Origin: Thiohalorhabdus sp. Cl-TMA
GTDB taxonomy: Bacteria > Pseudomonadota > Gammaproteobacteria > Thiohalorhabdales > Thiohalorhabdaceae
Direction: 5' to 3'
Assembly (NCBI RefSeq): GCF_041821045.1
Contig: NZ_JBGUAW010000001.1
Location: 310,001-374,000, forward strand
DNA: 64,000 bases
Shown: positions 8,533 to 55,666 of the stretch, one piece after another
Numbering within the stretch: position 1 is the stretch's first letter
Layout: each line of letters opens with the position of its first letter
Notes under the pieces: model-generated
What the model was told of the DNA's origin: nothing
The model's input: only the letters and a program-made list of their open reading frames with translations
Database searches by the model: none
Program-made: the position numbers and the translations under genes

Positions 8533-8910
8533 TCAGATCCGCTTCACCAGGATCCAGAAGGATTCACCGACGAGCGCCTTCTTCATGTGCACCTTCACCT
8601 TGGTAGGCTGCATGTTGTAGTCGAAGGTGTACTCGAACATGGCGTCCAGCTCGCCCTTCTCCACCCCTTCCTTGAATTTGCCCTGGAATTCGGGGCTCTT
8701 GGTGCACGGCGCCACTTCCTCGAAGAAGTTCTTGCCGATTACGTCCCCGGCCTGACGCCCGGTGATGTCGCTCTCCGCCGCGTTGTAGGCGAGGATCTTG
8801 CCTTGGGCATCCACCTGGACGGCGCCGAAGGCCAGATTGTCGAGGTCGCGGTCGTCCATATTGGCGAGGGCGTTGTCCACGTCCGCCTGATCGAAACTTA
8901 CCCGTTCCAT
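8533..8910 (-). CDS. pyp: Photoactive yellow protein
   Basis: A 125-residue PAS-fold blue-light photoreceptor, the exact length of the Halorhodospira halophila protein. All hallmark residues fall at the canonical positions: Tyr42 and Glu46 (hydrogen bonds to the chromophore), Thr50, Arg52, the chromophore-bearing Cys69 in VAPCT, and Met100. The covalently attached p-coumarate isomerises on blue light, and the signalling state is linked in some bacteria to negative phototaxis or gene regulation. The ATG at 8910 has an AGGAG site. The two chromophore-biosynthesis genes follow directly on the same strand. No output partner protein is encoded nearby. Confidence 0.98.
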
Positions 8911-8925: not shown

Positions 8926-9086
8926 CTATGCATGTGAACGATTTGAACGTTTTGAGTGCATAGAGCTACCACCGCCCGGGACCCCCGTCAATAAAATTTC
9001 CGAATAAATTTTTATTTTTATCCAGGTTTGTACGTGGTCACTTCCATAAGATAATTGCGCGCCGGGCAGTTGCGTGAACGTTTTGA
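8926..9086 (-). promoter_or_regulatory. pyp promoter/operator region with TGAACG tandem repeats
   Basis: The 8911-9276 gap holds the pyp control region and no gene I can support. TGAACG(A/T)TTTGA occurs at 8935-8946 and 8944-8955 (9-bp period) and again exactly at 9075-9086. The first two copies are flanked by 7-bp inverted arms CTATGCA (8926-8932) and TGCATAG (8957-8963). On the minus strand a possible -35 TTGACG (8986-8991) lies 17 bases before a weak -10 TAGCTC (8963-8968). An AT-rich block at about 8990-9030 lies upstream. These look like regulator-binding sites; the regulator is unknown. Confidence 0.5.
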
Positions 9087-53210: not shown

Positions 53211-53404
53211 TGTCAAATCGTTTTACACCGTCTCTTCGGCGGTTCGCCGGTATCCCTCGATTGTTGTCCCCGGTGTCCCAAGCAGCAGATGGGAGGAAAA
53301 GGGATAATGGTGTAGAAAAAACTTACACCGCCGCGGAACCGTGCGCGTATTTCTGTCGTATTTATTTCTAAAATATGGAGATTATCTATGGTACGGAGCT
53401 TGCT
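53211..53404 (+). promoter_or_regulatory. Sigma-54 promoter with two upstream TGT-N11-ACA sites
   Basis: TGGTACGGAGCTTGCT at 53389-53404 matches the -24/-12 consensus (TGGYRYR-N4-TTGCW), with the invariant GG and GC separated correctly. Two 17-base elements, TGTCAAATCGTTTTACA (53211-53227) and TGTAGAAAAAACTTACA (53311-53327), share TGT-N11-ACA and are exactly 100 bases apart, placed like enhancer sites for a sigma-54 activator. The second lies within a GGTGTA-N9-TACACC inverted repeat (53309-53329). The 53138-53463 gap holds no gene other than this control region. The PEP-CTERM-like gene starts 60 bases downstream. Confidence 0.8.
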
Positions 53405-53463
53405 GGGATGTCCTTGAAATCCATTGTTTCCGCTGTCTCAGCGGTAAAAAAAAGGAGAACCCT

Positions 53464-53661
53464 ATGAATATCGAATCTTCTTTTGTCCGCCATGGGCTGC
53501 GTGCCGTCGGAACCTTCGGAATGGCCGGTATCCCGGCCCTTGCCTCTGCATCCGCGGCGATCGAGGAGCCCATCGATCTACCGACCCCCAGCGTTCTCGC
53601 CCTGGCCATTGCGGGCGGCGCCGCGGCGGGGTACGCCACTTACAGGAATCGCAAGAAGTAG
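53464..53661 (+). CDS. Small PEP-CTERM-like exported protein
   Basis: A 65-residue protein. An N-terminal stretch (GLRAVGTFGMAGIPALASASA) acts as a signal peptide, leaving a mature part of only about 30 residues. The C-terminus is LPTPSVLALAIAGGAAAGYATYRNRKK: a P-x-P-S motif, a hydrophobic helix and a basic tail, the three-part plan of PEP-CTERM sorting signals cut by exosortases. The motif is a variant (LPTPS instead of VPEPS). An AAGGAGA site precedes the ATG at 53464. The gene is behind a sigma-54 promoter, a control mode known for PEP-CTERM genes in other proteobacteria. No exosortase is in the window. Confidence 0.6.
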   Translation: MNIESSFVRHGLRAVGTFGMAGIPALASASAAIEEPIDLPTPSVLALAIAGGAAAGYATYRNRKK

Positions 53662-53679: not shown

Positions 53680-54486
53680 TTGGAAACCGTAATCCGGATG
53701 AGCCAAGGTTCCTGGTCCTGGATGGTCCTGGCCGGCGTTTTCGCCGGCCTGGTTGCGGCAGAGGTCCTCTGGCCCAGACGCCAGGGGCCTCTGTCCCGTT
53801 TCGTGCGCTGGACAAGCAACGGTGTCCTGTTCTTGGTCAACGGTCACCTACAGTCCCTGCTCGGGGTGCTGGGGGCCGGGTCCATGGCCCTGCTGGCCGA
53901 GCAGGAGGGCTGGGGGCTGTTCCAGCTGGTCCAGGCGCCCGCCTGGCTGGCCATTCCACTGTGCGTGGCAGCCGCTGACCTCTTGTTCTATGCCCGCCAC
54001 CGGCTTCTACATGCTTTCCCGCTCCTGTGGCGCATCCACCAGGTTCACCATGACGATAGTGCGATGGACGCCAGCACCGGGTTTCGCTTCCATCCCCTGG
54101 AGGCGGTGCTGGAACTGCTGACCTCGGCGGGTGTGGTGCTGCTGCTCGGAATGCCGGTCGTCGGTGTGGCCGTCATCCAGCTGCTGGCGTTGGTGGTCAA
54201 CCTTTTTCAGCACACCAACGTGCGGCTGCCGGGGCGGCTCGACCACTGCTTGCGCTACCTGGTGGTTACTCCGGACATGCACCGCGTCCACCATTCGGTG
54301 GTGCGTGCCGAGGCGGACAGTAACTACGGGGTGGTCTTCCCCTGGTGGGACTACCTGTTCGGCTCCTACCGGGCTCGGCCCGCTGCGGGGCACGCGGCCA
54401 TGACCGTGGGTGTGCGGGGGCGGGAGGATCCCGGTGATCTGGCCCTGTTTGGACTGCTCCTGGCGCCGTTCCGGAGGCTTGGCTAA
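53680..54486 (+). CDS. Sterol desaturase / fatty acid hydroxylase family protein
   Basis: A 268-residue membrane di-iron oxygenase-like protein with about four hydrophobic segments. The histidine boxes are HRLLH, HQVHHDD, and a later HRVHHS, which bind the two irons. Members hydroxylate or desaturate lipid chains; the substrate is unknown. It starts 18 bases after the PEP-CTERM-like gene at a TTG (53680) behind GGGGGCAGG, or at ATG 53698, and is likely co-transcribed from the sigma-54 promoter. A link between the small exported protein and a lipid modification is suggested only by position. Confidence 0.88.
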   Translation: METVIRMSQGSWSWMVLAGVFAGLVAAEVLWPRRQGPLSRFVRWTSNGVLFLVNGHLQSLLGVLGAGSMALLAEQEGWGLFQLVQAPAWLAIPLCVAAADLLFYARHRLLHAFPLLWRIHQVHHDDSAMDASTGFRFHPLEAVLELLTSAGVVLLLGMPVVGVAVIQLLALVVNLFQHTNVRLPGRLDHCLRYLVVTPDMHRVHHSVVRAEADSNYGVVFPWWDYLFGSYRARPAAGHAAMTVGVRGREDPGDLALFGLLLAPFRRLG

Positions 54487-54681
54487 TCCTGCTTTTCCCT
54501 TCCCGCTAAGCTTGGTTTAAAGAACCGGAATGGCTCTGCGATAGTGGTACAGGCAACCGCGATCCATGCGGGGCCGCTCGGCACTCGCGGACCGATCCGG
54601 GAAAGGGTGCCGTAGTCCAGGGGCTGCATGCCAGGGCTGGGGCCACTTCCAGAGGTCTCTCCCGTCAGAAAGGCCGGGGCG

Positions 54682-55164
54682 ATGCAGTCGAGTCTGAAAG
54701 CCGGTCTCCATTTCGGTCTGACTTCCGGGGTGATCACCACCCTGGGTCTGGTGGTGGGCCTGCACGCGGGCACGCGCTCCCAGCTGGCGGTGATCGGCGG
54801 GATCCTCACCATCGCGGTGGCGGACGCCCTTTCCGACGCCATGGGGGTGCATGTGTCCCGGGAGGCGGAGGAAATCTACCTCGACCGGGAGCTCTGGTTG
54901 GCCACGGGGGCCACCTTCGGCGCCAAGCTGGTGATCGCCCTCACCTTCCTGGTGCCGGTGGTGCTCCTGCCGCTGCCCTGGTCCATCCTGGTCAGCGTGG
55001 TTTGGGGGCTGGGCCTGATCACCGGGCTGAGCTACCTCATCGCCCGCTCCCGCCGGGTGGCGCCCGCCCGGGTGGTCCTGGAGCACCTGCTCCTGGCCTT
55101 GCTGGTGGTGGGGATCGCGTACGCCCTCGGGCTCTGGGTAGCCCGGTATTTCGGCATGCCGTAA
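54682..55164 (+). CDS. VIT/CCC1-like membrane protein, copy 1
   Basis: A 160-residue integral membrane protein with about five hydrophobic segments. The opening GLTSGVITTLGLVVGLHAGT and the GILTIAVADALSDAMGVHVSREAEE stretch resemble the first helices and linker of VIT1/CCC1 iron-manganese transporters. It is shorter than those proteins (about 230 residues), lacking much of the cytosolic metal-binding hairpin. The start at 54682 follows CAGAAAGGCCGGGGC. A close paralogue follows 16 bases after its stop. Transport of iron or manganese is inferred from family and context. Confidence 0.7.
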   Translation: MQSSLKAGLHFGLTSGVITTLGLVVGLHAGTRSQLAVIGGILTIAVADALSDAMGVHVSREAEEIYLDRELWLATGATFGAKLVIALTFLVPVVLLPLPWSILVSVVWGLGLITGLSYLIARSRRVAPARVVLEHLLLALLVVGIAYALGLWVARYFGMP

Positions 55165-55180: not shown

Positions 55181-55666
55181 TTGGGAAGCGATCTGGGAAT
55201 CGGCCTGCGCTTCGGTCTTAACTCCGGGGTGCTCACCACCCTGGGCCTGGTGGTGGGCCTGCACGCGGGCACCGCCTCTCTGCTGGCCGTTGTCGGCGGG
55301 ATCCTCGCCATCGCGGTGGCGGATGCCCTGTCGGAGGCCCTGGGCATGCGCATGTCCATGGAGGCGCAGACGGAGGACGGCTCCCCGAGACAGCCGTGGG
55401 CGGCCGCCGGCGGCGTATTCGCCGCCAAGTTCGCCATGGCGGCCTCCTTCCTCTTCCCCGTGCTCTTCCTGCCACCGCGCGCCGCCGTTCTGGCGAGCGT
55501 GGTCTGGGGGCTCGGCCTGCTCGCGGGGCTGAGCTACCTGACCGCCCGGAGCCGGCGAGTACCGGCGGCTCCGGCGGTACTGCAGCATCTCGCCCTGGCC
55601 GCCGGCGTGGTCGGGGCCACCAACCTCCTGGGGCGCTGGACGCCCACCCTCCTCAAAGTCCTCTAA
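55181..55666 (+). CDS. VIT/CCC1-like membrane protein, copy 2
   Basis: A 161-residue paralogue of the preceding gene, about half identical by eye, including GLNSGVLTTLGLVVGLHAGT and GGILAIAVADALSEALGM. It begins at a TTG (55181) with a strong GGAGGAG site. The two copies face the same way and are probably translated from one transcript, perhaps to form a heterodimer in the inner membrane. They lie just before a strong Fur box, so the cluster may deal with iron. Confidence 0.7.
   Translation: MGSDLGIGLRFGLNSGVLTTLGLVVGLHAGTASLLAVVGGILAIAVADALSEALGMRMSMEAQTEDGSPRQPWAAAGGVFAAKFAMAASFLFPVLFLPPRAAVLASVVWGLGLLAGLSYLTARSRRVPAAPAVLQHLALAAGVVGATNLLGRWTPTLLKVL

Follow-up and report, generated by a model that had tools for sequence, protein, structure and literature searches.

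Haft et al. (2006; PMC1569441) described, ahead of PEP-CTERM genes, a 17-nt motif 1 that ends in TTTACA and is sometimes repeated, followed after 62.8 ± 10.6 nt by a motif 2 of the -24(GG)/-12(GC) kind, with 71 ± 38.5 nt from motif 2 to the start codon. In the same work, the phylogenetic profile of this motif layout matched those of PrsK, PrsR, and PrsT, and a few of the motif sites stood before other genes (PMC1569441). For pepA, a PEP-CTERM gene of Aquincola tertiaricarbonis, dependence on RpoN1 has been shown and the -24/-12 promoter has been mapped (PMC9850573). Here we describe a locus of Thiohalorhabdus sp. Cl-TMA in which a promoter of this layout precedes a gene of only 65 codons. The whole stretch of DNA that was analysed, 64,000 nucleotides long, is referred to as the window, and positions are given in its numbering unless a contig is named.

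Promoter architecture upstream of a 65-codon gene

A preliminary description of this DNA had reported 2 TGT-N11-ACA elements at 53211 and 53311, a -24/-12 element at 53389, and an open reading frame of 65 residues at 53464-53661, and all of these were present at those positions. The features of the locus are as follows:

53211..53227, + strand: distal PrsR-type activator site (motif 1 of Haft et al.), TGTCAAATCGTTTTACA; 13.9 bits, rank 3 in the window
53311..53327, + strand: proximal PrsR-type activator site (motif 1 of Haft et al.), TGTAGAAAAAACTTACA; 20.0 bits, rank 1 of 127,968 positions
53389..53404, + strand: predicted -24/-12 sigma-54 promoter (motif 2 of Haft et al.), TGGTACGGAGCTTGCT; matrix rank 1 of 127,970 positions
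53453..53457, + strand: ribosome-binding site AGGAG, read directly, 6 nt before the ATG
53464..53661, + strand: 65-codon gene for a minimal PEP-CTERM-like protein; intact open reading frame with coding-like codon use, AlphaFold2 two-helix hairpin
53464..53556, + strand: signal-peptide-like segment, residues 1-31 (MNIESSFVRHGLRAVGTFGMAGIPALASASA), from the sequence and a modelled helix at 3-31
53581..53658, + strand: PTPS motif, hydrophobic helix, and RNRKK tail, residues 40-65, from the sequence and a modelled helix at 42-64
53680..54486 (TTG 53680 or ATG 53698), + strand: gene of the fatty acid hydroxylase / sterol desaturase superfamily; PF04116, 1.6e-31

The -24/-12 element fully fits TGGYACR-N4-YTGCW, with GG at -24 and GC at -12. 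The proximal activator site is separated from the -24 element by 61 nt and the distal site by 161 nt, and 59 nt lie between the -12 end and the ATG of the 65-codon gene. No sigma-70-type site was found in the promoter region of this gene.

We used 9 PEP-CTERM genes of the same genome, found with PF07589, as a training set from which the 65-codon gene was excluded. All 9 genes have a -24/-12-like site shortly before the start (the one at L021 was identified during the motif step). For each site, the preceding 260 bases were used to learn a 17-nt activator motif, which reads cGTCgAaAAacTTTACA. When both strands of the window were scored with the activator matrix, 53311 was the best of all positions and 53211 the third, and the sigma-54 matrix derived from the same 9 genes placed 53389 first. 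A joint score, which combined activator and sigma-54 matches over the observed range of spacings, was 35.1 for the locus compared to 20.4 for the runner-up in the window; the PEP-CTERM promoters themselves scored 24.8-42.7. The gap from activator to sigma-54 site is 62-76 nt in most PEP-CTERM promoters of the genome versus 61 nt at 53311/53389.

Taken singly, the short patterns are near chance. For TGT-N11-ACA, the window has 3 matches where chance predicts 3.16, and we rejected it as a stand-alone signal; the full -24/-12 pattern gave 15 matches genome-wide against 8 for the reversed control, which is little above the control. What is significant is the architecture as a whole: across the genome, the combined pattern TTACA-N40-70-TGGYAY-N6-TGC matched 6 times, whereas its control never matched, and all but one of the 6 sites are PEP-CTERM-type promoters, that of the 65-codon gene among them. 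By pattern and family searches, on which the genome-wide statements rest, the other promoters of the same architecture that head an identifiable gene all head PEP-CTERM genes. Together, these results indicate that the promoter, as judged by its sequence, is genuine and belongs to a described type, the PrsR/sigma-54 promoters of the XrtA/PEP-CTERM system, at which PrsR is predicted to bind and transcription to start. The comparative evidence for PrsR/sigma-54 control of the 65-codon gene is strong.

A distal second activator site is common in the regulon and is found at several PEP-CTERM promoters, compared to 0.03 distal sites expected per promoter in shuffled sequence. The 2 sites lie exactly 100 nt apart at the PEP-CTERM promoters L018 and L022 (gaps of 62 and 162 nt), where the distal scores are weak (7.1 and 7.9), and at 53211/53311 in the window (61 and 161 nt). 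The separation is 103 nt at L023 and 113-135 nt at L021, L019, L168, and, in a congener, L185, the last 2 being related promoters. We make no claim of a helical-phase meaning for the 100-nt repeat. At L168 (G000 C15:38687), the PrsR-type promoter is intact, with its 2 activator sites 135 nt apart, and the gene appears frameshifted. Elsewhere in the window, a strong activator-matrix match at 8986, with no -24/-12 site, lies upstream of a photoactive yellow protein gene (8533-8910, - strand; TIGR02373, 188 bits, cut-off 143).

Exosortase and Prs proteins of the genome

The genome encodes a single exosortase, the only match to PF09721, which is XrtA by TIGR03109 (344 bits, cut-off 208) and carries a fused EpsI-type C-terminal domain. 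PrsR (726 bits, cut-off 503), PrsK (787, cut-off 300), PrsT (757, cut-off 312), and an EpsB2-type sugar transferase (578, cut-off 393) are encoded side by side on contig C5, approximately 18 kb before xrtA, and the stretch between this cluster and xrtA is partly occupied by exopolysaccharide genes. The preliminary description had named the lack of an exosortase or of a PrsR-like activator as an outcome that would count against it; both are encoded. Its proposal of sigma-54 and PrsK/PrsR control is also in line with the presence of PrsT and with the same two-part promoter before PEP-CTERM genes. A type IV pilin-like gene is preceded by a -24/-12 site of consensus sequence, TGGCACATCAATTGCT (L002, G000 C1:177993), which serves as a positive control for sigma-54 promoters within this genome. 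Together with the many sigma-54-activator proteins, this site suggests that rpoN is present.

The recognised tails in the genome carry PAP, PVP, PGP, or PEP, and PEP is also found in a further gene at C3:283490. The latter (L180, G000) is a PEP-CTERM gene with the tail IPEPGILSLLAMGVFAFMTGLGRRFRRVLG that was missed by PF07589; a -24/-12 site accompanies it, and a congener has an orthologue (L191). Since PTP only adds to the variation already present at the middle position of P-x-P among recognised substrates, and since only one exosortase was found, the suggestion that LPTPS marks a new sorting class is unsupported. No second LPTPS protein was seen among the promoters recovered in the genome, and we rejected such a class, which would have no dedicated second exosortase.

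The 65-residue product and the hydroxylase gene behind it

The product consists, in order, of MNIESSFVRHGLRAVGTFGMAGIPALASASA-AIEEPIDL-PTPS-VLALAIAGGAAAGYATY-RNRKK. The signal-peptide-like part takes up residues 1-31 and PTPS begins at residue 40, which leaves a spacer of only about 8 residues and thus essentially no passenger. The wording of the preliminary description, a signal peptide, about 30 residues, and then a P-x-P-S motif, was therefore correct as to the order of parts, and fails if a 30-residue spacer was meant. The N-terminal segment fits a signal peptide in both its sequence and its helix at 3-31, and cleavage would take place at an A-x-A site near residue 31. At the C-terminus, a hydrophobic helix is followed by a basic cluster (SVLALAIAGGAAAGYATY-RNRKK), as in the PEP-CTERM layout. 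AlphaFold2, run on the single sequence, gave a hairpin in which the spacer connects a helix at 3-31 to one at 42-64, with a mean pLDDT of 74. Codon use in the 65-codon frame scored +0.13 bits per codon compared to -0.19 to -0.85 in the other 5 frames; the signal is weaker than that of the neighbours, and GC at third positions is 0.71 versus 0.81-0.89 nearby.

Searches of the 65-residue product against Pfam and NCBIfam returned no match, including to any NCBIfam CTERM model. On a genus tail profile made from 12 PEP-CTERM tails, its tail scored 2.6 bits, compared to 16.8-49 bits for real tails in leave-one-out scoring, and 492 of 2000 layout-preserving shuffles reached the same 2.6 bits. By tail profile (TIGR02595/PF07589), the product did not qualify as a member of the PEP-CTERM family, and it has Pro-Thr-Pro in place of the near-invariant Pro-Glu-Pro. 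No homologue was found in the 55 other genomes searched, where the best hits (E 0.005 and worse) were low-complexity hydrophobic matches, and hence there is no sign of purifying selection. One of these hits, in a short frame of a congener (L054) that lies on the opposite strand to a long radical-SAM-like open reading frame, was dropped as a homologue. At the DNA level, the locus resembles other PEP-CTERM loci only in the region of the activator sites. The term PEP-CTERM-like thus suits the order of parts but not the tail, which falls outside the Pfam, NCBIfam, and genus-specific profiles; the product stands as one that is controlled like, and built in the order of, a PEP-CTERM protein.

The hydroxylase gene starts 18 nt (TTG 53680) or 36 nt (ATG 53698) after the stop of the 65-codon gene, and no terminator-like site was found between the two. 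Co-transcription with this gene, which the preliminary description called a desaturase, is plausible from the layout, but the operon is not conserved. Its closest NCBIfam model is OlsE, at 79.8 bits and far under the cut-off of 475. The gene is an extra paralogue of a genus-conserved copy, which this genome and a congener share at another locus (C3:259707; G001 C11:305072) and whose neighbours are unrelated to PEP-CTERM. In 80 related hydroxylase loci of other genomes, a simple pattern, which weak cases could escape, detected no small gene upstream that combines P-x-P with a sigma-54 site, leaving a conserved pairing of small gene and hydroxylase unsupported. Downstream, 2 adjacent and similar genes for small membrane proteins (54628-55164 and 55181-55666) appear to be a tandem duplication; the former has a weak VIT1-type match (6.3e-5, under the curated cut-off).

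Readings of the locus and comparison with described systems

We consider it probable that the locus is a member of the PrsR/RpoN regulon encoding a passenger-less, divergent PEP-CTERM-like peptide that is offered to XrtA, probably with a co-transcribed hydroxylase. PrsK would phosphorylate PrsR, which would bind one or both TGT-N11-ACA sites and activate the sigma-54 RNA polymerase at 53389, and a transcript beginning near 53415 would then encode the 65-residue protein followed, probably, by the lipid hydroxylase. The small protein would most likely enter the inner membrane as a helical hairpin. Signal peptidase would cleave it near residue 31, and its PTPS tail would be presented to the single exosortase XrtA, with at most about 10 residues released or transferred.

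The main rival to this reading is a shrunken remnant, in which an internal deletion removed the passenger of a once full-length PEP-CTERM gene. What is left would be the promoter, the signal peptide, and a drifting tail that is in frame by chance, and the gene would be functionless or act merely as a leader of the hydroxylase gene. Such decay could account for the lack of a homologue in 55 other genomes, for a tail that has drifted out of the genus profile (2.6 bits), and for a third-position GC content under that of the neighbours (0.71), and it has a parallel at C15:38687, where a broken PEP-CTERM gene with its tail APVPNAKTLWLLLAVSGVSYWASRRRQ in another frame lies behind an intact PrsR-type promoter. 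However, the start codon, the ribosome-binding site, both helices, the P-x-P motif, and the basic tail are all intact in the 65-codon gene, its frame shows coding-like codon use, and its DNA similarity to other PEP-CTERM loci is confined to the activator-site region, and we regard a remnant as unlikely.

We think it quite unlikely that the gene, under PrsR control, encodes a small membrane protein of two helices that the exosortase does not process, with the lipid hydroxylase as the real target of the promoter and the small protein as its membrane partner or leader gene. The tail fails the PEP-CTERM profile, the AlphaFold2 model is a plain helical hairpin, the hydroxylase exists in addition to the genus-conserved copy, and Haft et al. 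record a few such sites ahead of other genes (PMC1569441), all of which would suit that arrangement. Against this, a P-x-P directly before a C-terminal helix and a basic tail is the layout expected of a substrate, the other such promoters in the genome head PEP-CTERM genes, and the simple pattern check found a similar small gene at 0 of 80 related hydroxylase loci. It is very improbable that sigma-54-like and TGT-N11-ACA matches with no relation to each other stand by chance ahead of a spurious open reading frame: although neither pattern is informative by itself, TGT-N11-ACA being as frequent as expected by chance and the -24/-12 pattern little above its control, independently trained matrices and the joint ranking put the locus first, and the combined pattern had 6 genome-wide matches versus 0 in the control.

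Within the favoured reading of a regulon member offered to XrtA, it is doubtful that the gene is a functional passenger-less exosortase substrate, that is, a source of an exported peptide some 10 residues long, or else a bare tail that occupies XrtA, co-expressed with a lipid hydroxylase. If this were true, the small product would be an exported signal, or a regulator or titrator of the exosortase, coupled to a change in membrane lipids. The size and diversity of exosortase substrates make their processing difficult to study, and a natural substrate reduced almost entirely to a signal peptide and a sorting tail would offer a minimal probe, already at hand, both for XrtA and for control by PrsK/PrsR. 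In addition, the locus is an example of how a promoter signature can find genes of exosortase systems that are missed by protein profiles.

In IPTL-CTERM and other variant exosortase tails, [I/L]-P-T precedes a hydrophobic helix with a basic end. The tail of the product shares this layout with IPTL-CTERM, matches no NCBIfam CTERM model, and occurs in a genome in which only XrtA was found. The hydroxylase resembles OlsE-type ornithine lipid hydroxylases and the FA_hydroxylase superfamily in its PF04116 domain, where the histidine motifs read HRLLH, HQVHH, and HRVHH, and differs from OlsE in its low score against that model (79.8 bits, cut-off 475). Similarly to pepA of A. tertiaricarbonis RN12 (PMC9850573), the present gene has a -24/-12 promoter, a predicted upstream enhancer, and a genome that encodes PrsK/PrsR and EpsB2; for pepA, RpoN dependence and the start of the transcript were measured, whereas for the present gene both are predicted from sequence. 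Most PEP-CTERM genes form single-gene operons, whereas this one is directly followed by a hydroxylase gene, and unlike the PEP-CTERM genes of Haft et al. it encodes no passenger domain, has P-T-P for P-E-P, and ends in a tail under the profile thresholds. It shares with the XrtA/PEP-CTERM promoters described by these authors (PMC1569441) a repeated activator site with a TTTACA-like end, a distance of about 62 nt to the -24/-12 site, and a long intergenic region, and with their systems the presence of PrsK, PrsR, PrsT, and an exosortase in the genome and a product built of signal peptide, P-x-P, helix, and basic tail.
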